DNA of 39,257 bases, from the NCBI GenBank assembly GCA_946186455.1, contig CAMHNK010000005.1:1-39257 (forward strand), given 5' to 3'. Origin of the DNA: an uncultured Candidatus Saccharibacteria bacterium. Lineage in GTDB: Bacteria > Patescibacteriota > Saccharimonadia > Saccharimonadales > Saccharimonadaceae. The position numbers were made by a program, and so were the translations under genes. Shown here piece by piece: positions 1,549-13,072 of this stretch. Under the pieces are notes generated by a model. It worked only from the letters and a program-made list of their open reading frames with translations. It ran no database searches and was not told the DNA's origin. Each line of letters begins with the position of its first letter. Position 1 is the first letter of the stretch.

Positions 1549-3003
1549 CTACTCCTTTTTTGAAAAGGCGTTTGATACTTCTTCGAGAAAAGGACCGATA
1601 GATGAAAGCGCATCAGATTGCTTGATATACGACATAATACTCGCTTTAATAATATCATCGAGCACTTCCTTCGTTTTCGTACTGCTGCCATCTGCTGGCA
1701 TTTTCTCATAGTAGTACTCGCTACAAGTATTATAAAGAATCGTGATTTTTTCACCTTGGATCGTATGCTTAAAAAGTGGTCCTTTTTCGTCGCCGGCGTA
1801 ATTCGAGAATACTATTTCGAATTTTAACTCTTTCGCTGGTTCATCGTCAGGAACTGGCACTTCGATTTCTTTTTCTTTTTTAGTAGGCGTCAAAACTGTT
1901 TTTCCAGGTTTTTTTGGCGTCTGTGGAAGAATGAAAGGATTGTCATCTTGTGCTCTCCTTTGCTTTTCCTTCATTTCTTCGCGCACTTTTTTGACTGGCT
2001 CATCCAATACGACCTTAAGAGCGTCGATAATCTCATTCGATGGTGCAATGTCGTGTTTTTTCAAGTTAACGCCCATCAAATCGTCAAGATCCGAATTGAA
2101 GCTGAGTTCGATCCTTAATAGGTTAAAATCATTATGTTTTTTGAAGATTTCAGGGAATTCCAACGCTGCAGCTACCTCACGTCTGTTTCTCAAGATATAA
2201 AAACCTTGGCCTTTAATATTCAGCCGAAGAGCCTTATTGGCTTTTGGGCCTTGATCTGGAATTTTAACCGCTAACACATGCATTTTTCCTTCAATACCAG
2301 ATTTTGACTTTATGTCAATATCCGTATCAACTATCGCCGTGCCGAAACCGGTGAGAAGAGGGTCATACAGATGAACTTCCGAACCATTGATAAATATCTT
2401 CTTCCCACTCTTGAGGAATGCGCGAAAGGCTTCGCCGACGTATTCATCAACGGCACTAATTAGATCTTTTGCTCTTGTGTATTGTAATTTATCGCACTTG
2501 TCAATGGCTAATACTGTGCCACTTTTTGAATTGTTAGTGCGGAAATTGAAGCTTGCAATTTCCGTATCTGTTGATTTATGAAAATCCGCATTAAACAGAT
2601 TAGTTTGGCGAATGGCGTCATAATCTAGCACGGCTGTATTGTACACACCATCTTTTTTCGTAATAATACGAATTACACGGCCCATCGAAATAGAGGCAGT
2701 AATAAGACCTAGGCCATACTTGCCCAAATCAGAAGCGCCATCATGAGCCTTTTTGCCGCCAAGTCGAATAGCATCGTGAAGGGTGTCTTCCGACATACCA
2801 ACACCGTCATCTGCAATAAAGATTTTGTTCAGGTCTTCATCTACCGAAATCCAAATATTATTGGCTTCTGCATCAATTGAATTATCGATAAGGTCGGCCA
2901 CTGCAGCTGTGTTCTCGTAGCCCATACTTCTTAATGCATAAAAAAGACCTGCCGCATCAGGAAGTATATTTTCTTGCCCACCCCTTGATTCTTTGTAATC
3001 CAT
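1549..3003 (-). CDS. GHKL (MORC/HATPase_c_3-like) ATPase
   Basis: A 484-aa protein with a GHKL ATP-binding fold in its first ~150 residues: N-box AVADLIDNSIDAEA, G1 box IADDGVGM, and G2 box LGKYGLGLITAS. The ADLIDNSIDA form resembles MORC and MutL/Hsp90-class ATPases rather than sensor kinases, and no DHp or transmembrane segment is seen. A charged linker rich in K, P and E (residues ~335-385) separates it from a C-terminal domain of unknown type. Related ATPases occur in DNA-management and defence gene clusters, which is family knowledge. It is the first gene of a three-gene operon with a consensus promoter. The start ATG at 3003 is preceded by GAGGA at a usable distance. Confidence 0.8.
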   Translation of the reverse strand: MDYKESRGGQENILPDAAGLFYALRSMGYENTAAVADLIDNSIDAEANNIWISVDEDLNKIFIADDGVGMSEDTLHDAIRLGGKKAHDGASDLGKYGLGLITASISMGRVIRIITKKDGVYNTAVLDYDAIRQTNLFNADFHKSTDTEIASFNFRTNNSKSGTVLAIDKCDKLQYTRAKDLISAVDEYVGEAFRAFLKSGKKIFINGSEVHLYDPLLTGFGTAIVDTDIDIKSKSGIEGKMHVLAVKIPDQGPKANKALRLNIKGQGFYILRNRREVAAALEFPEIFKKHNDFNLLRIELSFNSDLDDLMGVNLKKHDIAPSNEIIDALKVVLDEPVKKVREEMKEKQRRAQDDNPFILPQTPKKPGKTVLTPTKKEKEIEVPVPDDEPAKELKFEIVFSNYAGDEKGPLFKHTIQGEKITILYNTCSEYYYEKMPADGSSTKTKEVLDDIIKASIMSYIKQSDALSSIGPFLEEVSNAFSKKE

Positions 3004-3149: not shown

Positions 3150-3830
3150 TTATCTGACCTCAAACGTCCACTCGTCGCCGGAGCCTTCGGTGGTTGATTT
3201 GACAATTTTGTGAATCTTGCCGTCTTTGTCCTGGGTGTATCCTAGATAGCCGACACTGTCGGTGAAGTTGCCATACACCCTAACGGTGTTTTCGGCGCCT
3301 TCAACTTTGTTTGCCTTGGTGTGCGTATATTCGTCAACCGTCACTACGGTGCCATCGCTAAGTAGTGCAATAAGCCAAGTATCGCCGCCATTTCCTAATT
3401 GACCAACCGCGAGATCGACTGGCGTGCCACCGAGAACTGAAGTAATATCCTTTGATTCGCCGTATGGCCATTGGTTTTTAAAGGCTTTCAGCTTGCCATC
3501 GGCAGAAAGGACATAGCTCCCACCATAAGAATCGTTCGGCGAAGCCACCGTCATAGAGTGCTTAACCTTAGTGTCTTCGGCGTCCGGGAGACCGCTACTA
3601 GCTGTATACTCAATATCGCCATCAAAATTACTGGCTTGGAAGCCAAACTTAACTTCCGTTTTTGCAGTATTATCATCCGGCTTTGGTGTTGGGGTTTCTA
3701 GACTACGCGTCATGCCGTAAATACCAAATGCGATACCGGCGAGGCCGATAATCGAACCAACCGCTATTCCGATAATTGCATTTTTGTTTCCATGTTTCTC
3801 TTGTGGTTTAGTTGAAACTTCATTTTCCAT
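3150..3830 (-). CDS. Membrane-anchored extracytoplasmic protein, unknown function
   Basis: Starting at the ATG at 3830 (MENEVSTKPQEK), the protein has a short charged cytoplasmic N-terminus, one transmembrane helix (about residues 17-39, AIIGIAVGSIIGLAGIAFG), a Pro/Thr linker (ETPTPKPDDN), and a ~170-residue domain predicted to lie outside the cell. The domain is rich in Gly, Asp and Thr and reads like repeated beta strands (phrases such as GGSYVLSADGKLKAF and GGDTWLIALLSDGTVV), possibly a small propeller-like or WG-type repeat fold. That is a guess. An upstream in-frame start at 3872 is less likely because a -10 box lies between the two starts. The gene appears leaderless. Confidence 0.65.
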   Translation of the reverse strand: MENEVSTKPQEKHGNKNAIIGIAVGSIIGLAGIAFGIYGMTRSLETPTPKPDDNTAKTEVKFGFQASNFDGDIEYTASSGLPDAEDTKVKHSMTVASPNDSYGGSYVLSADGKLKAFKNQWPYGESKDITSVLGGTPVDLAVGQLGNGGDTWLIALLSDGTVVTVDEYTHTKANKVEGAENTVRVYGNFTDSVGYLGYTQDKDGKIHKIVKSTTEGSGDEWTFEVR

Positions 3831-3837
3831 AAGTATT

Positions 3838-3846
3838 ATTATATCA
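3838..3846 (-). promoter_or_regulatory. Leaderless extended -10 promoter for the 3150-3830 gene
   Basis: On the minus strand TGA-TATAAT (TATAAT at 3843-3838) ends 7 nt before the ATG at 3830, so transcription would start at or next to the start codon. No Shine-Dalgarno site fits. Confidence 0.7.
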
Positions 3847-3882
3847 TTCCAAGCTCGCCAACATAATGCCATTATGCCATGT

Positions 3883-3907
3883 AAAAACCCGCTCCATTGG
3901 AGCGGGT
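3883..3907 (-). terminator. Intrinsic terminator of the structured RNA
   Basis: ACCCGCTCC-AAT-GGAGCGGGT followed by TTTTT on the minus strand: a 9-bp GC-rich stem with a U-tract. Confidence 0.9.
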
Positions 3908-4304
3908 AGGGAAATGTGCGAGAGCTCCAAGGCTCGACGTCCGGACACCGAGTGGGTCCCAGGAGCTCTGTTGCCGGGGTTATCCGGCCGAACTACGGAA
4001 TCCGCAGCGCTTCATCCGTATCCCATAGGCAGGACCGTATCCCGCTATGGCCTTTTCTCATCCGTGCGGTCTTCCTCCGCGCGAATTCTCCGCGCCGACC
4101 AGGGTCGAGCGGCGTCGTACACCATTCGTAGGCTTTCCTACGATAGTGCTGCCCCGAAGGGCATTGCTAGGTCTACCCGTCTACAACAACTTCCGCGCAA
4201 AAGCACGTGCGAACGTTATGGCAATGCCATAAGCTCATATCATAAACGAGCACCCCTGCCTAGCAGTTCTTACCACGGGCGGCGTACCGCACCGTAGTTA
4301 GATC
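3883..4304 (-). ncRNA. Structured ~420-nt RNA of unidentified family
   Basis: A promoter at 4311-4338 and an intrinsic terminator at 3883-3907 bracket a GC-rich stretch with no convincing ORF on its strand. Several hairpins are directly visible on the minus strand: GCGG-UACG-CCGC near the 5' end; UUAUGGC-AUU-GCCAUAA around 4213-4229; GCCC-UUCG-GGGC around 4152-4163; CGUAGG-AAAG-CCUACG around 4127-4142; and an AGAGCUCC/GGAGCUCU pair that closes a domain near the 3' end. Length and layout would suit RNase P RNA or tmRNA, but I cannot find the RNase P core GGAAAGUCC or its 3' partner, nor the tmRNA tRNA-like ends. The family is therefore left open. Confidence 0.7.
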
Positions 4305-4310
4305 ACTATA

Positions 4311-4338
4311 ATTATATCATATCTAGATATTAAAACAA
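4311..4338 (-). promoter_or_regulatory. Promoter of the structured RNA
   Basis: Minus strand TTGTTT (4338-4333), a 16-nt spacer, then TATAAT (4316-4311) preceded by TGA. The predicted start is near 4304, right at the beginning of the structured region. Confidence 0.75.
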
Positions 4339-4419: not shown

Positions 4420-4734
4420 TTGAAAGGAGGGATTATTACGGCTAATTCGATCTACCTCGACGAGGAAGAAATCCGGATGCACGAAATTTTGACCGAGTAT
4501 CTGTTCGTTCGTTATAAAGCAGCCTGTGATATGTTGACGGACAATTTTACAAAAAGATTGGAAGAGATGTGGAAAAACGGGAAAACTCCCGACCGGAAAT
4601 TCTACGATTTTGAGTACGACAAACTGGCATCTGCCAAGGCGCAAGCCGACGAAAAACTCTTTCAGCTCCACTCCATGAGCGGTGCCGAGATTCGGCGTGT
4701 TTACGCCAGATATTACCACGAAATGTTCCCGTAA
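4420..4734 (+). CDS. Small hypothetical protein (~99-104 aa), start uncertain
   Basis: The coding frame reads NSIYLDEEEIRMHEILTEYL and continues as a charged, mostly helical small protein ending YYHEMFP. I do not recognise the family. The start is unusual. The longest frame begins with TTG at 4420, but a strong AAGGAGGG (4424-4431) lies inside it. At the correct distance after that site stand ATT (4435) and ACG (4438), not ATG. The first ATG is at 4477, with GAGGA about 10 nt upstream. Initiation at a non-AUG codon near 4435-4438, or at the ATG at 4477, are both possible. The gene has its own promoter and a terminator, and converges with the XRE-Panacea gene. Confidence 0.6.
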   Translation: MKGGIITANSIYLDEEEIRMHEILTEYLFVRYKAACDMLTDNFTKRLEEMWKNGKTPDRKFYDFEYDKLASAKAQADEKLFQLHSMSGAEIRRVYARYYHEMFP

Positions 4735-4741
4735 CTCCCCA

Positions 4742-4765
4742 GCCCACGTTTACGTGGGCATTTTT
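4742..4765. terminator. Bidirectional terminator
   Basis: GCCCACG-TTTA-CGTGGGC followed by ATTTTT on the plus strand. It lies between two convergent genes and overlaps the stop codon of the XRE-Panacea gene. Confidence 0.8.
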
Positions 4766-5486
4766 AATACGCTGGTAAATTTACTGGAGCAAATACATTA
4801 TTGGTGGGTTCTTTTTTTATCGTTTGATATGGTATATACTCACCATCGCGCCGCTCTTGCCATGCTTTTTGTGAATGAGTAAAGTTTACGATTTCCGATG
4901 TATTTTTATCTTTCCAATAATTGCAGACCATATCTATGATGTTTTTTTCTTTTTCCGTAAAGACTTCTGGGTCAAAATCGCCATTAGTATCGGATATCGA
5001 AATGATTTGAGCTAGATCGAATATTCTGATGCTAATTTTGCCTTTTTTAAACTGGTCATCAGTAATAGCAAGAAAGTCCTTTGCGAGTGGGCCATAATGA
5101 TTTCTATAATAGCTCGCCCCCGTAATCGATTCATTATAACAATAATAGTAAGTGAAGTCTGAAAGATATAGTAGCTTAGCTAGTTTAGTTTTTGTTACTC
5201 CAGTATCACTAAAGTGCTTTTTTAGAATATAGTAATACAGTTGTACAAATTTTTCCTCGTCGTAGTCATCTTTCGGCTCACTAGACTCTATGACGCCTAT
5301 TGGTTCAATATTTAGTATTTCGCATATTTCATTAAGGGTATTAATGCTTAGAGGGCTCCTATTGGCCTCTATGTTCATGTACGTAATACGATTAATGCCG
5401 AGGGCATCAGCTATCTGCTCCTGGGTCATCTTCGCTTTCATCCTTGCTTCGCGGATTCTCGAAACGATAGTTGCATTCGAAATCAT
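4764..5486 (-). CDS. XRE HTH + Panacea (DUF4065) domain protein, antitoxin-like
   Basis: A 240-aa protein using the ATG at 5486, which has AGGAG 8 nt upstream; the GTG three codons earlier abuts that site and is unlikely. Residues ~6-60 are a canonical XRE helix-turn-helix (REARMKAKMTQEQIADALGI and NRITYMNIEANRSPLS). Residues ~75-190 match the SocA/GepA-like DUF4065 domain (KLAKLLYLSDFTYYY; GASYYRNHYGPLAKDF), called Panacea when it serves as an antitoxin. Panacea antitoxins neutralise diverse toxins and often carry HTH domains for autoregulation. No toxin gene lies in the same operon here, so the partner is unclear. The small convergent gene at 4420-4734 and the divergent DUF4417 operon are the only neighbours. 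Confidence 0.85.
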   Translation of the reverse strand: MISNATIVSRIREARMKAKMTQEQIADALGINRITYMNIEANRSPLSINTLNEICEILNIEPIGVIESSEPKDDYDEEKFVQLYYYILKKHFSDTGVTKTKLAKLLYLSDFTYYYCYNESITGASYYRNHYGPLAKDFLAITDDQFKKGKISIRIFDLAQIISISDTNGDFDPEVFTEKEKNIIDMVCNYWKDKNTSEIVNFTHSQKAWQERRDGEYIPYQTIKKEPTNNVFAPVNLPAY

Positions 5487-5518
5487 CCCGTTCACTCCTA
5501 GTTGATTTTATTCGTTAT

Positions 5519-5551
5519 ACTGATTATAAAGCAGTTGTCGTTTTTTTGCAA
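5519..5551 (-). promoter_or_regulatory. Promoter and possible operator of the XRE-Panacea gene
   Basis: Minus strand TTGCAA (5551-5546), a 17-nt spacer and TATAAT (5528-5523). The -10 box sits inside an imperfect palindrome, ACTG...CAGT (5519-5535, 12 of 17 positions symmetric), a good place for autorepression by the encoded XRE protein. Confidence 0.65.
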
Positions 5552-5625
5552 CACTATTCGTGATTAATTTTACTCTTGCAATTATATTTTTACTAACTTT
5601 TACACAATGGTCATATAAATTTTTC

Positions 5626-5654
5626 TTGACTTCGCCAATTGTATTTGCTATACT
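5626..5654 (+). promoter_or_regulatory. Sigma-70 promoter of the DUF4417 operon
   Basis: TTGACT (5626-5631), a 17-nt spacer and TATACT (5649-5654) with TGC upstream. Transcription would start near 5661, giving a ~210-nt leader before the ATG at 5872. Confidence 0.85.
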
Positions 5655-5660
5655 AGTGCC

Positions 5661-5871
5661 AAACGGAGGTTAAAACTTTAAATTAGCGCCTTCGTCGAAT
5701 ATTAATAAGTACGGATCATAAAAACGCGCCTGCTGATATTTTCGACGATACGCAGCAAACGCGCTGGACGACAGTATACTAAAATACTATCAATTCTTAT
5801 TTTAGCATATTTTGTCAAAAAGTAAAGCATTGGCGTTTTATTGATCCTTTTAATTTATGAAAGGATAAAAA
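5661..5871 (+). promoter_or_regulatory. Long folded leader with possible pseudoknot
   Basis: A stem can form from GCGCCTGCTG (5726-5735) and CAGCA...GCGC (5753-5764). Its loop carries ATATTTTCGACG (5736-5747), which complements the upstream CGTCGAATAT (5693-5702) apart from a 2-nt bulge, so a pseudoknot or two exclusive folds are possible. A weak AGTAT/ATACT hairpin near 5773-5788 precedes U-rich sequence. AAAGGA before 5872 is the ribosome binding site. Function unknown. Confidence 0.45.
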
Positions 5872-6570
5872 ATGGCAAATAGATTTGCTAAAATTAGCGA
5901 TGGCTTTCAAGAAGAGCTCATCATGAATGCTAGGTTAGATGGGCTCATCCAAATGCCCGCCATTGACCGTGAAAAGGAAATAATTGTCCCGGAACGTTTA
6001 GTTCCTTATTCTAAGATTGATTACTGCGAGGAACCAAATAAATTCGGTGTATTCTATGAGGACGATATTAATTTTACAGATGTGCTCGAAAACCCAGAAA
6101 ATGAGCTATGCAAGAGACGAATAGCTCAATGCATGGGCGTCGTATCACCGGATTGTTCTGTTTTTCTCAATGCTCCTTTCATTGTCCAGCTAATGGCTAT
6201 TTATAGAAGTCGTGCCATTGGTGCAAAATTTCAAAGTATGGGAATATACACAATTGCAAACGTCAGATGGGGCGATGAACGAACCTATACTACTAGTATT
6301 CTACCTGAGCCGGCCGCTTTCTTAGGAGTACCAAAGCACTTTGTTGTCTCAATTGGTTCTCATGGTGCTTGCAAAAACACTGAAGTTAGACATCAGTTCT
6401 GCAATGGGCTTGTGGCAATGTTAGATTATTTAGAGCCAGAAGTCGTACTGGTTTATGGCCCTATGCCGAAAAGCATCTTCGGTGATTTAGTGAATCGAAC
6501 TCGATTTGTTCAGTACGATGATTGGATTACGGCTCAGCATAAAGGAGGGGCGCGACATGGGAACTGGTAG
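5872..6570 (+). CDS. DUF4417 family protein
   Basis: A 232-aa protein with the DUF4417 pattern: GVFYEDDINFTDVLENPE, then GVVSPDCSVFLNAPFIVQL, YRSRAIGAKFQSMGI, and NVRWGDERTY, followed by VVSIGSHGACKN. The molecular function of DUF4417 is not established. It is common on phages, plasmids and accessory islands, and in Saccharibacteria (family knowledge). It is the first gene of a three-gene operon with a long structured leader. Its last 14 nt overlap the next start, so the two are translationally coupled. Base composition (AT-richer than the housekeeping genes) fits an accessory origin. Confidence 0.8.
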   Translation: MANRFAKISDGFQEELIMNARLDGLIQMPAIDREKEIIVPERLVPYSKIDYCEEPNKFGVFYEDDINFTDVLENPENELCKRRIAQCMGVVSPDCSVFLNAPFIVQLMAIYRSRAIGAKFQSMGIYTIANVRWGDERTYTTSILPEPAAFLGVPKHFVVSIGSHGACKNTEVRHQFCNGLVAMLDYLEPEVVLVYGPMPKSIFGDLVNRTRFVQYDDWITAQHKGGARHGNW

Positions 6571-6916
6571 CGACAATAAATATCATAGCGTCCGTAGGAA
6601 TGCCGAATCCGCTCCGGCGAAATTCGGCTATAACAGCAATAGCGGATTATTCGGCAATAATGGCAATCATGAGGGAATTCGCGAGATTAAAACGGATAAC
6701 CCCATTAAAGATGCGAGAGAATTATTTGCTATAATAGCTAATGGAGGATGGAAGCGTCTTAAAAATGACTCCGGGATGGAGGTTTACGTTCTGCCCGATA
6801 ATACTTATATTACCTTGAGAATTCATACAAAGTCCGGAAGCCCCGCAGTAGACATCAACATTAATAGTAACCCTTATGGTAGCAAAGTAAAAACTCAAAA
6901 AATTCATTTTATATAA
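6557..6916 (+). CDS. Small two-part protein, toxin-like C-terminus (tentative)
   Basis: The ATG at 6557 has AAAGGAGGGG just upstream inside the DUF4417 gene and gives 119 aa. The N-terminal ~45 residues are low-complexity and rich in Gly and Asn (KFGYNSNSGLFGNNGNHEG). A compact C-terminal domain follows (DARELFAIIANGGWKRLKND, YVLPDNTYITLRIHTKSGSP, ending KTQKIHFI). The pattern of a disordered linker plus a short C-terminal domain with a TxSGxPAxDI segment recalls C-terminal domains of polymorphic toxins and some phage proteins. This is recollection, not a match I can verify. No signal peptide is seen. The next gene could be a cognate immunity protein. Confidence 0.6.
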   Translation: MGTGSDNKYHSVRRNAESAPAKFGYNSNSGLFGNNGNHEGIREIKTDNPIKDARELFAIIANGGWKRLKNDSGMEVYVLPDNTYITLRIHTKSGSPAVDININSNPYGSKVKTQKIHFI

Positions 6917-6928
6917 GGAGGAAAAACT

Positions 6929-7492
6929 ATGACAAAAGCATCGAGACAATTATCTGAAGATAGTAAAAAAGTATTACATAGCACTATTGGGAAAAGAATT
7001 GAATGTTTTAGAGTAATTAAGGACCATGAAAAAACTAGGCCGATTGGGCTTGTGGTTGTAGATTTTGACGATGGTTCTTCTATTGAAATCCGCAACAGTG
7101 AAGATCTTGTGCCGTTTTTTGACGGAAAAGAAGAATTAAATGGTTTTAGCTGTAAAGAATTTGATGATAGAATTCTCGAAAGGATTCCATTTGACAAAAA
7201 CAAAGTTCCTACTTCAACCATTAAAAGTATTGATTTAATAACCGACAAAATAGTCGTACACTCAAATAAATTTGAAGACTATATTATTATTATAGACGCT
7301 GGCATTATTATCAATGGTGATAAACACTCATATATATTTGCATTAGATAAAGTATTCTTCTTTGAGCAGATTTTATGTTCGGTTGATGGCAATTTTGAAG
7401 AAATGCGTCCTCTAGGGGAAGTTAAAAAGTATTGGGAGATGGGCGACCATATTATCGATGCCGAAATAACAAGAGCTTCAGAACAAATATAA
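6929..7492 (+). CDS. Hypothetical protein, third gene of DUF4417 operon
   Basis: A 187-aa acidic protein with a strong AAGGAGG site before the ATG at 6929, 12 nt after the previous stop. It has no signal peptide or transmembrane helix. The sequence alternates beta-like strands (IGLVVVDFDDGSSIEIR; FEDYIIIIDAGIIINGD) with a short C-terminal helix. I do not recognise the family. Being acidic, soluble and directly downstream of a toxin-like gene, it could be an immunity protein, but that is inferred from position only. Confidence 0.6.
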   Translation: MTKASRQLSEDSKKVLHSTIGKRIECFRVIKDHEKTRPIGLVVVDFDDGSSIEIRNSEDLVPFFDGKEELNGFSCKEFDDRILERIPFDKNKVPTSTIKSIDLITDKIVVHSNKFEDYIIIIDAGIIINGDKHSYIFALDKVFFFEQILCSVDGNFEEMRPLGEVKKYWEMGDHIIDAEITRASEQI

Positions 7493-7501
7493 TAATGAAA
7501 A

Positions 7502-7527
7502 ATCCCCCTCTTTTGAGGGGGGTTTAG
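7502..7527. terminator. Bidirectional terminator between convergent operons
   Basis: CCCCCTC-TTTT-GAGGGGG (7504-7521) flanked by AAAAAT and GTTT serves the DUF4417 operon on plus and the 7529-8317 gene on minus. Confidence 0.85.
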
Positions 7528-7528
7528 A

Positions 7529-8317
7529 TCAAATCTGATCTGCACGGAGGCGAGCGTTCATAAACTGCCGATTAAAGAATACGGGGACATGAACACAACT
7601 ACTGTCTGCTATCATTTTAAAGTTAGCGTTACTTTCCGTAATCTTTAAAACGATGCGACGTCCAGTCATGACTTTCGTCCTAGTCGCGAGTTCGATGGAT
7701 GAACCAGCTTCGACAACTCGACCATCTGCAACTAGGCCGTTCGCAATAACTTTTAGATACTCTAATACTTCTGCCGGTTTTTGCGTCCATTTCTCGCCGA
7801 CCCCTTGTTCGATAAAATTACCGAGCTCTTTTTCATCCGGGATGAAGACGTTGTCGCCTTGCAAGCGACTCGTACCAATCCGGTCGATGTCGCTAGACGA
7901 GAAAGTCGAGAGGGGAAATTTGGTGCCGAAATAGTCTAACCGAACTTCGTGATAAAGCCGGTTAAACTTGCCAATGGATAAGGTTTCGTCGAAAACATAG
8001 CGCCGGTTTCTAAATTCAACGATGGCGCTAAATGGATTGAGGCGATTATTGGCAGCCACGTACTCATCGTGAAACCAGAAGCATCCGCCGACGGCGGAGC
8101 CGGAAATCAAGATGACGGTACCAGCTTCTTCTGGAATAGTATTTTTATCATAAACCGAGCAAACTGATCGGTCATAGATAAACTCGTATTCCGGACAGAA
8201 CTCATCTCTTGTCCCAATGAAGAAATAGCCGCTGCCATTTTTGGTACCAATGTACATTCGCCGTTTGCGGTCGAGTTTCTCGACCTCATCGATTAGTCTG
8301 CCGTAGGTTTTTTCCAT
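7529..8317 (-). CDS. Hypothetical protein, accessory-region
   Basis: A 262-aa soluble protein with GGAGG shortly before the ATG at 8317. The N-terminus (RRMYIGTKNGSGYFFIGTRD) reads like a small beta-rich module seen in some phage and accessory proteins. I cannot name the family, and no catalytic motif stands out. It follows the 8378-8905 gene on the same strand with a hairpin (8342-8364) between them, so it may be read through from that promoter. Confidence 0.6.
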   Translation of the reverse strand: MEKTYGRLIDEVEKLDRKRRMYIGTKNGSGYFFIGTRDEFCPEYEFIYDRSVCSVYDKNTIPEEAGTVILISGSAVGGCFWFHDEYVAANNRLNPFSAIVEFRNRRYVFDETLSIGKFNRLYHEVRLDYFGTKFPLSTFSSSDIDRIGTSRLQGDNVFIPDEKELGNFIEQGVGEKWTQKPAEVLEYLKVIANGLVADGRVVEAGSSIELATRTKVMTGRRIVLKITESNANFKMIADSSCVHVPVFFNRQFMNARLRADQI

Positions 8318-8341
8318 GGAACACCTCCAAATTATTAAATT

Positions 8342-8364
8342 CCCCCGGACTAAGCGTCCGGGGG
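8342..8364 (-). terminator. GC-rich hairpin between two minus-strand genes
   Basis: CCCCCGGAC-TAAGC-GTCCGGGGG, a 9-bp stem. The sequence that follows on the minus strand is only moderately U-rich (GAATTTAATAATTT), so it may terminate partially or protect a processed end. Confidence 0.6.
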
Positions 8365-8377
8365 TACTTGCTAGGGA

Positions 8378-8905
8378 TTACTCCACCTTAGTGGGGTCAG
8401 GAAGGGGCATCGAAATGGGTTTCTGGAAAATCCAGATATCCACGTGGGGATCATCTGCGAGATTGTCCTTAGCCGCTACCAGATAGCTATCATCCTCGAA
8501 GAGGAAGAGACCTTCTTTCCAGGTGACGGGCGAATCTTTAACGACCTTTCCGTCTACAAAGAAAGACCAGCCCTGGCAGTGCCCGGGATCCTCACAATAA
8601 AGATCCTTAGAGATGTGTTTCGGATTCAACACGTCGTGAATCCGGATGGGTTTGCCAATTTCGAGATTCGAAATTGGCGAGCAGAACCTTAAGAAGCAGG
8701 CCAGCTGCATTCCAAGTGTTCCGTCGCCGCCAAGCATGGCCGAGACGATAGAAACGTCTTCGCCCCAGGCTTTGTCGTCTTCAGGATAGTACATGTCAGC
8801 GATGCGATTGCCAAGCACCCCAAGGATCATTGCCTTATTAGGGAACAGGTCGGCATCTGCAAAGCTGTTATGGGGACAAAACCCCAGGTTTTCATACCTC
8901 GCCAT
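8378..8905 (-). CDS. Hypothetical protein, accessory-region
   Basis: A 175-aa protein with AAGGAGG 9 nt before the ATG at 8905 and a consensus promoter. No signal peptide or transmembrane helix. It contains a small Cys/His cluster (CEDPGHCQGW) and an aromatic-rich C-terminal half. The family is not recognised. Its promoter is the best match to consensus in the window, suggesting strong or tightly repressed expression. Confidence 0.6.
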   Translation of the reverse strand: MARYENLGFCPHNSFADADLFPNKAMILGVLGNRIADMYYPEDDKAWGEDVSIVSAMLGGDGTLGMQLACFLRFCSPISNLEIGKPIRIHDVLNPKHISKDLYCEDPGHCQGWSFFVDGKVVKDSPVTWKEGLFLFEDDSYLVAAKDNLADDPHVDIWIFQKPISMPLPDPTKVE

Positions 8906-8959
8906 AAAAACTAACCTCCTTGCGTAAACCCGCCGGTTTTTCTAGCAAGTTAAATTGCC

Positions 8960-8975
8960 ATGACCTTATGGTCAT
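8960..8975 (-). promoter_or_regulatory. Leader hairpin / palindrome upstream of 8378-8905
   Basis: ATGACC-TTAT-GGTCAT, a perfect 6-bp inverted repeat starting 8 nt downstream of the -10 box. It could be an operator or a 5' hairpin. Confidence 0.45.
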
Positions 8976-8982
8976 CTCTTAT

Positions 8983-9011
8983 ATTATAGCACACATGGGC
9001 GTTTTTGTCAA
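8983..9011 (-). promoter_or_regulatory. Perfect consensus promoter for 8378-8905
   Basis: Minus strand TTGACA (9011-9006), a 17-nt spacer, TATAAT (8988-8983), with TGC before the -10. Confidence 0.9.
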
Positions 9012-9023
9012 GATAAGGAGAAC

Positions 9024-9053
9024 TTGAACGATTCGGTTTCTCCGTGTTATAAT
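9024..9053 (+). promoter_or_regulatory. Promoter of the surface-protein pair
   Basis: TTGAAC (9024-9029), an 18-nt spacer, TATAAT (9048-9053) preceded by TGT. AAAGGAGG follows at 9063-9070. Confidence 0.75.
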
Positions 9054-9074
9054 AGACGAAACAAAGGAGGTTAA

Positions 9075-10070
9075 GTGAATAAGATATTGCGAGGATTTAT
9101 TGTAGTCTTGGCTGGTTTTTGTGCTTTGGTCGGAGTGAACGGAACGGTTTTTGCTGATGAAGAGAATCAGGAGGGAGAAACCAAGCCGGCGACCAGTATT
9201 AGTATTAGCCCGGTTAATAAGGTGCTCAAACTCGAGCCAAATAAGACCTATGATGACTCATTTAAGGTGATGAATAACGGCGCGGACGCGATCAGATTTG
9301 AGGTTTACGCTTCGCCGTACTCTTATACTAAGGATGAGGATGATGGTACTTATAAGCTTGGTTTTAGCAATGAGACTGCTTATACACAGATTACGCGCTG
9401 GATCACTTTTAGAGATAATAATGGTGCTTATACGAGCAAGCCGAAATTCAAGGTGGAGCCAGGTACGACCTTTGTGGTGCATTACCGCATTAAGACTCCG
9501 TCGAGCATTCCAGATGGTGGACAATATGCCGTAATATTTGCGCACACACTTTCAGATGACACCGAATCTGGTGGTCTGAAGACCGAAGCAAGCCCTGGGC
9601 TCGTCGTCTATGGTCGCTCGAATGGCATCACGAGGTTTTCGTTTGAGACTTATGATCTTAAAATTAATAAGACTATGCAGGATGGCGAAAAGACTGTTAC
9701 CAAGATTAATGGTACTTCAATGGTGAATAACTCTGGTAACGTAGATTTTATGGCCTATGGCAAGCTCACCGTGCGGGGTATCTTTGGCCACCAATACTAT
9801 GTGACGCCAGAGACAAAGGGTGTTTCGATTATTCCAGAGACCGAACTAGAAGTGTCCGATGCGTGGGATGACACGCCGTATTTCGGACTGTTCAATGTGA
9901 CTTGGTCCGTGACCGTGAAGGACGAAACGAAGGAAATCTCGAGGTTAGTACTGATTCTTCCTGTACCAATCATCATACTTATGATTTTGCTATTGACAAT
10001 TATCGGAATTTGGATTACAATTATGGTTAGGAAACGCAAAGAACGCCGTTCTAGGTTCGGTACCGTCTAG
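9075..10070 (+). CDS. Exported DUF916-like (WxLIP-type) membrane protein
   Basis: A 331-aa protein starting at GTG 9075 with AAAGGAGG 4 nt upstream. Residues 1-27 are a signal peptide (ILRGFIVVLAGFCALVGVNG, then AxA-like FADEE). Residues ~42-165 resemble the DUF916/WxL-interacting-protein fold: ISPVNKVLKLEPNKTYDDSF, WITFRDN, and PSSIPDGGQYAVIFAHT. A C-terminal transmembrane helix (PVPIIILMILLLTIIGIWI) and an RKRKERRSR tail leave the bulk outside the cell. In Gram-positives such proteins help display wall-associated proteins. Here it is paired with a sortase-type substrate 68 nt downstream, so a joint role in surface assembly or host attachment is plausible. Confidence 0.75.
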   Translation: MNKILRGFIVVLAGFCALVGVNGTVFADEENQEGETKPATSISISPVNKVLKLEPNKTYDDSFKVMNNGADAIRFEVYASPYSYTKDEDDGTYKLGFSNETAYTQITRWITFRDNNGAYTSKPKFKVEPGTTFVVHYRIKTPSSIPDGGQYAVIFAHTLSDDTESGGLKTEASPGLVVYGRSNGITRFSFETYDLKINKTMQDGEKTVTKINGTSMVNNSGNVDFMAYGKLTVRGIFGHQYYVTPETKGVSIIPETELEVSDAWDDTPYFGLFNVTWSVTVKDETKEISRLVLILPVPIIILMILLLTIIGIWITIMVRKRKERRSRFGTV

Positions 10071-10138
10071 AAATGGCGCCCGTGTGGAGCGGGACTGCGA
10101 GGCCAAAATAAATATTAAACATAAAAAGAGTGTAGAGT

Positions 10139-11044
10139 ATGAAGAACACACACAAGAGGATGCTAGGCTTCTTCGGGTTGTCGGTAGTTGCTACTATGAC
10201 GGTAGTTGCTGCTACTATGCCGACTCCTGGAGTATCCGCGACGGCATCACCATCGGCGGTTGACACCTTGACTGTGAGGGTGCTCAACAATGTCCCGACC
10301 GCAGAGATTACCTCTCCGGTTAATGGAGTTACGGTTACGAAACCGATCCAACATGTCACAGTAAATTACGAAAAAATTAAGGAGGTAACCGTCTATATTA
10401 AATATATTGATGAAGACGGTCACGAATCAGCAGAACATATTTTCTTCCACCAGGCAGGATTAGATCCAACTGAGCCAGGAACGATTGATCAGAACTATAC
10501 ATTAGGTTCCGGTGGCTTCGGTTATGGTAGGTACGTATTTTCGGTGGTTGGCGTAGATGAAGACGATGGAACGCTCCCGCTGGATTCAGTTGTAGTTGAC
10601 TTCACCCCAGTTAAGGCGGAAGCAGAGCAGAACGAAGAAGATGGTATGGTAGAAGTCAGATTCACAGATTATCAAGATGATGTAGAAGAAATTGAAATCT
10701 GGTTAGATGGTAAGCTAATCAAAACAGTACCAAAAGAGGATCTTGATAAAGTACAGAAACTTTCATTTGAAGATAAAGACTCAGGCACGTACACGCTCGA
10801 ATTAAAAGCCAAGTACGCAGACGGAAGTACTGCAAACATGCCGAGCATTGATGTAGATTTCGATGCAGGATTTGTCCCGCACACCGATGTACCTGATACC
10901 GGTAGATTCTTTAGAAACTTAAATATTGCGAGTGAAGATTACTTAGTCACCGGTTTGATTGTATTCTTCGTGCTAGGAATTGTAGCATTTGGAATTGTCA
11001 CGAGAAGTAAGAGAAGCACGAATCTAAGAAGAAAGCGTCGTTAA
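10139..11044 (+). CDS. VPDTG-anchored cell-wall surface protein
   Basis: A 301-aa protein with a signal peptide (residues 1-34, MLGFFGLSVVATMTVVAATM, cleaved near VSA-TA), two Ig/fibronectin-like beta domains (~50-155 and ~160-245; phrases EITSPVNGVTV and VEEIEIWLDGKLIK), and a C-terminal sorting signal. That signal is VPDTG, a short spacer RFFRNLNIASEDY, one transmembrane helix (LVTGLIVFFVLGIVAFGIV), and a basic tail (RSKRSTNLRRKRR). VPDTG fits the sortase LPXTG class in a variant form, with a longer than usual gap to the helix. It probably shares a transcript with the DUF916-like gene. Confidence 0.75.
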   Translation: MKNTHKRMLGFFGLSVVATMTVVAATMPTPGVSATASPSAVDTLTVRVLNNVPTAEITSPVNGVTVTKPIQHVTVNYEKIKEVTVYIKYIDEDGHESAEHIFFHQAGLDPTEPGTIDQNYTLGSGGFGYGRYVFSVVGVDEDDGTLPLDSVVVDFTPVKAEAEQNEEDGMVEVRFTDYQDDVEEIEIWLDGKLIKTVPKEDLDKVQKLSFEDKDSGTYTLELKAKYADGSTANMPSIDVDFDAGFVPHTDVPDTGRFFRNLNIASEDYLVTGLIVFFVLGIVAFGIVTRSKRSTNLRRKRR

Positions 11045-11067
11045 TAATTATCATACTCTAGCTCTTA

Positions 11068-11103
11068 GTACAGGCGCCATTTAAACTGCGAGGGCGCCTG
11101 TAC
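11068..11103 (+). repeat. 11-bp perfect inverted repeat after the surface-protein gene
   Basis: GTACAGGCGCC (11068-11078) and GGCGCCTGTAC (11093-11103) would form a stable stem with a 14-nt loop in the 3' UTR. There is no U-tract, and the real terminator follows 10 nt later, so this may be a stability element or a protein site. Confidence 0.6.
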
Positions 11104-11112
11104 GGAGGTTTC

Positions 11113-11143
11113 AAAAAACGGGCACTCACGGCCCGTTTTTTTT
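11113..11143. terminator. Bidirectional terminator
   Basis: AAAAAACGGGC-ACTCACG-GCCCGTTTTTTT between the convergent surface-protein operon and rpmE. Confidence 0.9.
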
Positions 11144-11150
11144 AGTCTCA

Positions 11151-11477
11151 TTATTTTTTAGCTTCTTTTTTCTCAGCTTCTTTTTTGGCTTTCAAAGCTT
11201 TGTTTTCGAGAGCTTTCTTAAGAGCCTCAGCTTTGGCGGCGCGAGCCTTGAAGCGGTCAACACGACCTTCGGTATCGATAATCTTCTCTTCACCGGTAAA
11301 GAATGGGTGAGATTTAGAAGAAATTTGAACCTTAACTAGTGGATATTCATTGCCATCTTCCCACTTGATGGTCTCTTCGCTCTTCGCAGTAGACTTGGTG
11401 AGGAACGAAAAATTCGCGGCTTCGTCCATGAAGACGACATCACGATAATCTTTAGGATGTAATTCTTTTTTACTCAT
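11151..11477 (-). CDS. rpmE: 50S ribosomal protein L31 (zinc-free type B-like)
   Basis: A 108-aa protein. Residues 1-80 match L31: [39 protein letters not shown], then [14 protein letters not shown]. There are no cysteines, so this is the zinc-independent (type B-like) form. A Lys/Ala/Glu-rich C-terminal tail of ~30 residues ([15 protein letters not shown]) extends the usual length and should contact rRNA. The promoter leaves only a ~4-nt leader, so translation is almost leaderless. Confidence 0.9.
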
Positions 11478-11488
11478 AACTAGCCCCT

Positions 11489-11517
11489 ATTATATCAGAG
11501 AAATAATAAAATGTAAA
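11489..11517 (-). promoter_or_regulatory. rpmE promoter
   Basis: Minus strand TTTACA (11517-11512), a 17-nt spacer, TATAAT (11494-11489) preceded by TGA. The -10 ends 11 nt before the ATG at 11477. Confidence 0.8.
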
Positions 11518-11525
11518 GAGAAAGA

Positions 11526-11551
11526 ATAGGCGAGTCCGGAGACTCGCCTAT
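11526..11551 (-). terminator. Terminator of the clpP-like gene
   Basis: ATAGGCGAGTC-TCCG-GACTCGCCTAT, an 11-bp perfect stem followed on the minus strand by TCTTTCTCTTT, 8 nt after the stop codon. Confidence 0.85.
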
Positions 11552-11559
11552 CAAGGTGC

Positions 11560-12210
11560 TTAGAGGATGACGTTCAAATCAGTGACGATCTCGTCAATGA
11601 AACCACGCTCTTTGGCGTCGGGCGGAAGCAGATAGTACTCAACGCGTGCCAGGGCATCGTATTCATATTCTTTCATTTTACTATGCCTCAGTACGTGAGG
11701 TTTAATCACTTCCTTTTCGATTCGCTTGTCAAATGCGACACGGTCTTCGACCTTATTGCTGGCGCCGCCAACGAAAGATTGGCCTTCGTGCAGCAGGAAA
11801 GTCGTATACGGGAGCGCGAAACGCTTGTGGCCAGTAATGCCAATCAAGAATGCCATTGAGCACCACCGGCCAAGGTTAATCGTATAAACCGGAGTTTTGC
11901 TGAGTTCGATGGCTGCAATAATCGGCAGCCCATCTTCGATTTCTCCGCCGGGAGAGTTGATGAACAACTTGATTGGCTTACGATCCGAAACCGGAACATT
12001 CATATCTTCGCGGTTAAAGTCCAGAATTGCATGGATGATGTGCGTTGCCGTCGAAGCATGCTCGTTCGAGGTTTCTTCGTAACCAAGCGGTTCGATTTCG
12101 CGATAGAGGTAAAGTCTCCTTTCTTTCAAATCTTCGAGCATACGATACTCTTCTGCTGTAGTGGTGATTTTCAGCATGTCGCGCGGGATTTCGAATGACA
12201 TTTCTGCCAC
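11560..12210 (-). CDS. clpP: ClpP-like serine protease subunit
   Basis: A 216-aa ClpP/crotonase-fold protease. The oxyanion and strand region FINSPGGEIEDGLPIIAAI, the nucleophile Ser in LGRWCSMAFLIG and the His in YTTFLLHEGQ are present. The third triad position, Asp in typical ClpP just before the final strand (RDRFLSAPEA), aligns here with Glu (VEYYLLPPDAKERGFID), by eye. It is a divergent member and may pair with a second ClpP elsewhere. The N-terminus carries a long extension (IPRDMLKITTTAEEYRMLED). GGAGG precedes the ATG at 12210. The leader has an inverted repeat that could be an operator. Confidence 0.8.
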   Translation of the reverse strand: MAEMSFEIPRDMLKITTTAEEYRMLEDLKERRLYLYREIEPLGYEETSNEHASTATHIIHAILDFNREDMNVPVSDRKPIKLFINSPGGEIEDGLPIIAAIELSKTPVYTINLGRWCSMAFLIGITGHKRFALPYTTFLLHEGQSFVGGASNKVEDRVAFDKRIEKEVIKPHVLRHSKMKEYEYDALARVEYYLLPPDAKERGFIDEIVTDLNVIL

Positions 12211-12227
12211 CTCCTCTTTTTTAAATT

Positions 12228-12253
12228 GCTCTTATCTAGCAAAAGATAAGCGC
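12228..12253 (-). promoter_or_regulatory. Inverted repeat in the clpP leader, possible operator
   Basis: GCTCTTATC and GATAAGCGC, 9-nt arms with one mismatch separated by 8 nt, lie between the clpP -10 box and its start codon. The geometry recalls CIRCE (9-N9-9), but the sequence is different. Confidence 0.45.
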
Positions 12254-12262
12254 TTGAGGAAG

Positions 12263-12291
12263 ATTTTAGCAAGAATTGTTGCTTTTTTCAA
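12263..12291 (-). promoter_or_regulatory. clpP promoter
   Basis: Minus strand TTGAAA (12291-12286), a 17-nt spacer, TAAAAT (12268-12263) preceded by TGC. It is divergent from and interleaved with the rpsB promoter. Confidence 0.7.
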
Positions 12292-12307
12292 GCATGTGTG
12301 TTATAAT
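12279..12307 (+). promoter_or_regulatory. rpsB-tsf promoter
   Basis: TTGCTT (12279-12284), a 17-nt spacer, TATAAT (12302-12307) with TGT upstream. The -35 lies beyond the clpP -35 (12286-12291), so the two promoters overlap. Confidence 0.75.
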
Positions 12308-12334
12308 TCGTTCATTAATAAATTTAATGAAACA

Positions 12335-12366
12335 GCTATGGGGGGTTTCCTGAATAAACCCATAGC
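12335..12366 (+). promoter_or_regulatory. rpsB leader hairpin
   Basis: GCTATGGG (12335-12342) pairs with CCCATAGC (12359-12366). TTT/AAA extends the stem across a 3-nt G bulge. It lies just before the GGAAAGGAAA site of rpsB. rpsB-tsf leaders in other bacteria are feedback targets of S2, so this may be an S2 site (inferred). Confidence 0.55.
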
Positions 12367-12385
12367 AAAGGAAAGGAAATCATAG

Positions 12386-13072
12386 ATGACTGTGAAAGTC
12401 GATATGAAAGCTCTGCTCGAAGCTGGTGCCCATTTTGGTCACAAAACGAGCCGCTGGCACCCAAAGATGGCGCCATACATCCACAGCAAACGCCAGGATG
12501 CACACATTATTAACCTCGAAAAGACCGTCGATGCTCTCGAAGTCGCTCTCCCTAAGGTGACCGAGATTGTAAAGAACGGCAAGAAGATTCTTTTCGTTGG
12601 TACCAAGAAGCAAATGAAGGAAGTAGTGAAAGAAGCTGCCACTTCAGTTGACATGCCTTACGTCACGGTGCGTTGGGTTGGTGGTACGCTCACGAATGTT
12701 GAGACGGTAAATCGCCAAATCAAGAAACTGAAAGATTTGGAGCGCCGCATGGCTTCTGGTGAACTCGAGAATCGTTACTCGAAGCTTGAAGTTCAGAGAT
12801 TCCAAGAAGAGATTGATCTTTTGAACGAGCGCTATGGTGGCATTAAGGAAATGACCGAGCAACCAGCTGCTATCATCGTCGTCGATGCAATCGAAGACAA
12901 GAATGCTATCAAGGAAGCTAATGGTCTTAAGATTCCTGTATTTGCAATGACCGACACCAACGTCGATCCAACCAATATTGATTATGTCATTCCAATGAAC
13001 GATGATGCGATCAAGGCAACCAAGCTCGTCCTTGGCTACTTCGTTGAAGCTATCAAAGAAGGTAAAAAATAA
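12386..13072 (+). CDS. rpsB: 30S ribosomal protein S2
   Basis: A 228-aa protein of normal length for S2. Diagnostic segments: LLEAGAHFGHKTSRWHPKM near the N-terminus; KKILFVGTKKQMKEVVKEA; RWVGGTLTNVETV; and PAAIIVVDAIEDKNAIKEA with DTNVDPTNIDYVIPMNDDA. It binds the neck and head of the small subunit and helps recruit S1-type factors where present. It is cotranscribed with tsf (17 nt between), the usual arrangement. AAAGGAAAGGAAA sits upstream of the ATG. Confidence 0.97.
   Translation: MTVKVDMKALLEAGAHFGHKTSRWHPKMAPYIHSKRQDAHIINLEKTVDALEVALPKVTEIVKNGKKILFVGTKKQMKEVVKEAATSVDMPYVTVRWVGGTLTNVETVNRQIKKLKDLERRMASGELENRYSKLEVQRFQEEIDLLNERYGGIKEMTEQPAAIIVVDAIEDKNAIKEANGLKIPVFAMTDTNVDPTNIDYVIPMNDDAIKATKLVLGYFVEAIKEGKK

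Follow-up and report, generated by a model that had tools for sequence, protein, structure and literature searches.

The 39,257-nucleotide stretch of an uncultured Candidatus Saccharibacteria genome analysed here, called the window below, probably carries a stand-alone gene whose product is a large structured non-coding RNA (ncRNA) of a family outside Rfam 15, with a putative promoter and terminator of its own and a proposed role as a scaffold or as the core of a ribonucleoprotein (RNP). As a structure, a new RNA family of the large free-standing kind is well supported.

Gene borders and fold

The gene is read on the minus strand, and transcription would run leftward from a start placed at about 4304 to a terminator ending at 3883, giving an RNA of ~422 nt (Table 1). 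An earlier sequence-only reading had proposed a discrete RNA gene of about 420 nt with promoter and terminator, naming no strand; the size and both signals are borne out, the signals lying on the minus strand. The candidate promoter is an extended -10 element, TGATATAAT, with a weak -35 region in the window copy, and a consensus promoter scan left it unlisted, returning on the same strand only a different and poorer match. We call it a promoter because the extended -10 is conserved in the homologues, being identical and at the same position in G047, G051, G020, G169 and G211, and because the divergent copy in G168 has a full TTGACA-16-TATGAT. The terminator is kept in all six copies that have their 3' end, and in G168 its stem has a different sequence with the pairing retained. 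Judged by this conservation, the RNA would be transcribed and terminated independently of its neighbours.

The minus strand folds with a minimum free energy of -193.5 kcal/mol, where dinucleotide shuffles give -159.0 +/- 5.8; this corresponds to a z of -5.95, and none of 100 shuffles folded as well. Folding of the plus strand is weaker (z -3.47). The GC-rich hairpins with UUCG and UACG loops that had been noticed earlier are indeed present, at 4162-4151 and 4298-4272 respectively. The second of these is P1, in which the G020 copy changes a C-G pair to U-A and so keeps the pairing. Two alternative pairings were dropped: the P4 hairpin drawn by RNAalifold (GCUGCGG-AUU-CCGUAGU), where G168 favours UACGGA/UCCGUA, and a pairing of GUGCG in P1 with the 3' CGCAC, where G020 alters P1 with compensation inside P1.

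Table 1. Features of the ncRNA gene, in window positions
Feature	Positions	Strand	Remarks
Whole ncRNA gene	3883..4304	-	Folding z -5.95; homologues and covariation
Extended -10 element TGATATAAT (putative)	4311..4319	-	TATAAT at 4316-4311; kept in homologues
P1, 5' hairpin with UACG loop	4272..4298	-	Near-invariant; 27-mer pattern in the same 7 genomes
Variable internal domain	4165..4265	-	~60% identity to close relatives, equivalent stems; not in G168
Stem PV1 of internal domain	4265-4259/4171-4165	-	
Stem PV2 of internal domain	4250-4239/4187-4176	-	
PV3 of internal domain	4232-4216	-	
PV4 of internal domain	4207-4194	-	
Hairpin GCCC-UUCG-GGGC	4151..4162	-	Consensus fold; not in G168
Hairpin CACUAUCGUAGG-AAAG-CCUACGAAUGGUG	4120..4150	-	Two pairs changed on both sides
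GC-rich hairpin CCGC...GCGG	4090..4112	-	Consensus fold; inside poorly conserved
P2, conserved-core hairpin	4060..4086	-	Covariation, including G168 in outer pairs
P3, 12-bp hairpin	4023..4050	-	Four pairs compensated in G168; 100% of cells paired
P4, UACGGA/UCCGUA	3994..4020	-	Longer in G168; one compensated pair and one-side changes
P5 hairpin	3973..3988	-	G168 carries an extra hairpin here
P6 enclosing P7	3921..3969	-	P6, 3969-3962/3928-3921; P7, 3952-3945/3940-3933
Invariant CGCAC directly 3' of P6	3916..3920	-	Identical in the 6 copies reaching it; G211 stops at CGC
Intrinsic terminator ACCCGCTCC-AAT-GGAGCGGGT-TTTT (predicted)	3883..3907	-	Best terminator-like site of the region; conserved

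Covariation in the core

The structure is conserved in relatives, as compensatory changes keep the helices. In the core, P2 to P7, 96.6% of cells are paired and 13 of 50 pairs differ on both sides and still pair, a count to be read knowing that G168, a single divergent sequence, supplies most of the double changes, that its two inserted loops were manually trimmed beforehand, and that the structure was partly drawn with the counted sequences in view. Shuffles averaged 2.8 such pairs, none of 500 reaching 13, and slid controls gave 0-3. Two results speak against circularity: R1, a covariance model for which the 3' domains of five close relatives were used and G168 was not, still retrieves that copy (63.2 bits, E 8.4e-13), and the minimum-energy fold of G168 on its own has the same helices. 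P6 contributes four compensated pairs, with 100% of cells paired, and P7 one. The loop of P7 is CCGG (3944-3941), and the palindromic UCCGGA that contains it is invariant in all seven copies; a self-complementary four-base loop would arise by chance about once in 16. At ~300 nt, the G168 copy has P1 and P2 with no internal domain in between, and for this reason P1 together with P2-P7 is likely to be the core of the ncRNA.

Distribution

A blastn search over 149 genomes found the ncRNA in four, its own included, all of one genus; one of the carriers is a public Saccharibacteria genome from the omasum of a roe deer. Run over 174 genomes of that genus, R1 recovered seven carriers (G000, which is the genome of the window, and G047, G051, G020, G169, G211 and G168), comprising a tight clade of six and the divergent copy in G168; the copy in G211 is cut by a contig end. 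The 27-base pattern of P1, allowing up to three mismatches, occurs in exactly the same seven genomes, and its reversed control in none. Model R2 gave no further copies when run on samples of 394 genomes from the family, 392 from the order and 380 from the phylum, under strict filters that scored few candidates per genome and that very divergent copies could escape. Nor was a copy found by blastn against phages and plasmids, by pattern scans of IMG/VR, or in other genomes searched by way of the gene neighbouring the RNA in G168.

When sampled relatives, G169 and G211 not among them, are ranked by UvrB identity, the closest (99, 97 and 93%) are all carriers, and those at or below 89% are non-carriers except for G168 at 82%. 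Because the nearest relatives carry the RNA and the more distant ones do not, G168 apart, the distribution fits stable inheritance within one clade. The position of G168 implies an older origin followed by many losses, or undetected divergence elsewhere, or transfer.

A fast-changing internal domain in a mosaic locus

Near relatives are 94-100% identical in P1 and 91-96% in the 3' domain, while the internal domain of ~170 nt has only ~60% identity among them and nevertheless keeps its stems. The comparison of the window with G169 is a case in point: identity is 100% in P1, 95.5% in the 3' domain and 88-93% in the flanking genes, but falls to 61% in the internal domain and to 58% over the 66 nt that follow. 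PV1, which is a long-range stem, the stem PV2 and the hairpins PV3 and PV4 form in every version of the domain, their arms having been matched by eye, with independent folds in agreement save for PV2 of the G020 copy. Between G047 and G051 the 171-nt internal domain is identical and a 104-aa gene is 97.8% identical, with nearby genes mostly 75-93% identical. The locus is a recombination mosaic, and we therefore think it likely that the internal stretch of the RNA has been exchanged between lineages.

This variability bears on how the RNA might act. The main rival to a scaffold or RNP core is a trans-acting regulatory sRNA, in which exposed loops or the variable domain would pair with target mRNAs and the fold would serve mainly for stability. 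A stand-alone gene with a terminator would suit such a regulator, and an internal domain that changes so much faster than P1 and the 3' domain could be tracking changing targets. However, these 300-450 nt are mostly structured, the helices and junctions are the most conserved parts, and the whole is unusually elaborate for an antisense sRNA, so that we regard this explanation as rather unlikely. We give less credence again to the idea that the RNA belongs to a hypervariable or defence-like island and is partnered with a neighbouring protein. The mosaic itself, with identities from ~75 to 99%, the MzaB-similar protein and the SocA/Panacea-HTH gene among the neighbours, and the internal domain and 104-aa gene common to G047 and G051 would all agree with it; yet no protein gene stands beside the RNA in all carriers, the divergent 104-aa gene occurring in only five of the seven and not being found in G020 or G168.

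Relation to known RNAs and to adjacent genes

Rfam 15 at gathering thresholds gives no match in the window. At E<=10 the ncRNA region returns chance-level matches only, the best (E 0.04) scoring less than half the gathering score of its family; the divergent G168 homologue likewise returns only chance-level matches, and the homologous regions of the relatives give tRNAs only. According to ARAGORN the window has neither a tRNA nor a tmRNA, and at the ncRNA locus neither the RNase P RNA model RF00010 (at E<=10) nor the tmRNA model RF00023 has a match. Both of these RNAs are encoded on another contig of the same genome, RNase P RNA at G000:C14:7789-8131 (219.6 bits) and tmRNA at G000:C14:593-946 (76.7 bits, above the cut-off), and because both genes are present elsewhere the ncRNA is very unlikely to be either. 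The sequence-only reading had left the RNA unassigned, suggesting a search for rnpB and ssrA elsewhere in the genome and wavering between a divergent known RNA and a new class; it stays unassigned, with no Rfam match, a divergent RNase P RNA or tmRNA has become very unlikely, and the new class is what is left, narrow in its distribution. The wider proposal of a very divergent RNase P RNA, tmRNA, 6S, SRP RNA, OLE, GOLLD, ROOL, HEARO or raiA suits the size range, and an additional large RNA is unexpected in so reduced a genome; set against the chance-level Rfam scores of the window copy and its homologues, and the genome's own rnpB and tmRNA, it seems to us quite improbable. No account of an RNA like this from Saccharibacteria turned up in the open-access papers searched.

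A role in cis is harder still to credit. As a leader or attenuator the RNA would control the gene downstream, which in the window is a 240-aa ORF directly following on the same strand, as it is in G169, and a terminator at the end of the RNA would be in keeping with this. However, that ORF has its own -10, again TGATATAAT (3846-3838, minus strand), beyond the terminator of the RNA, and the next gene is another one elsewhere: a GHKL ATPase in G047, an unrelated ORF of 114 aa that points the opposite way in G051, and a convergent carboxypeptidase-like gene in G168, while in G020 the RNA sits near a contig end. Since the neighbours thus differ between G000/G169, G047, G051, G020 and G168, and since the next gene has a promoter of its own, the ncRNA is without a constant protein neighbour and is very probably not a leader. 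That the plus strand encodes a protein here (the 143-aa ORF at 3866-4297) can be practically discounted, for although long antisense frames exist in several copies, gaps of 1, 2 and 8 bases between copies break the frame, the longest antisense frame in G168 has 66 codons, and the changes keep the base pairs of the minus-strand RNA. A short ORF after P1 (ATGATTTACTCAGGGG...) was also rejected; it occurs in G047, G051 and G169, and is absent from G000, G020 and G168.

Possible role

In the explanation that we prefer, the conserved core, P1 with the 3' multi-branch domain P2-P7, would probably be the working part, and the internal PV domain an addition to it that changes fast but retains its stems. 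The folded RNA would function as a scaffold or RNP core, neither coding for protein nor controlling the next gene, and dimerisation is an attractive possibility, by way of the UCCGGA at the P7 loop, which is both invariant and self-complementary. This step from structure to action, whether as scaffold, RNP core or possibly dimer, we put forward only tentatively.

Few free-standing RNAs of more than 300 nt have a conserved and elaborate fold; ribozymes, RNP cores and RNA-only assemblies are among those known. RNase P RNA and tmRNA resemble the ncRNA in length and in having a stand-alone gene, but the ncRNA matches neither model. With OLE, GOLLD and ROOL it has in common a long elaborate fold, stems supported by covariation and a poorly understood function (PMC12286853); it differs from them in having no Rfam match, in being shorter (300-450 nt), and in being confined, among the genomes sampled here, to one Saccharibacteria genus. 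OLE and GOLLD have symmetric palindromic kissing loops (PMC12286853), and the invariant self-complementary loop of the ncRNA, as known from its sequence, is of this kind. The raiA motif RNA, which folds alone as a monomer (PMC12286853), is similarly a large structured bacterial RNA, but unlike it the ncRNA has no match in Rfam.

An RNA that is retained in a genome of ~0.7 Mb probably earns its place. It is conceivable, if somewhat speculative, that we are dealing with a new RNA class of one small-genome lineage, which joins a constant core to an exchangeable but constrained domain in an RNA machine without known counterpart, and that machine may be a scaffold, an RNP core or a self-assembling dimer. 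The case supplies a sequence, a structure model backed by covariation, and seven naturally occurring variants, of which the G168 copy is a minimal form, and biochemical and structural tests are straightforward for that reason.

Other features of the locus

Several observations concern the surrounding genes. The ATG of the 240-aa ORF (3830) stands seven bases after its TGATATAAT, giving a promoter that looks leaderless (3830-3846, minus strand). Across window positions 4420-13072, compared with the loci L012, L013, L023 and L024, gene identities between the same genomes swing from ~75 to 99%. In many relatives within the genus, UvrB has gained some 35-40 residues in frame at around residue 170 (for example G214:C2:1884-3977 and G056:C2:20391-22481), an insertion that the UvrB of the window is without. 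At 1549-3003 and 133-1545, both on the minus strand, lie the genes for a GHKL-ATPase protein that resembles MzaB, a defence protein (E 4e-25), and for an adjoining protein that combines an RNA polymerase alpha-CTD domain with a sigma-70 region 4 domain, and this pair of genes is also found beside the RNA in G047. On the other side of the RNA, 4764-5495 (minus strand) encodes a fusion of an HTH with an antitoxin-like domain of the SocA/Panacea type, possibly a toxin-antitoxin or regulator gene, and 5872-6570 (plus strand) a DUF4417 protein.
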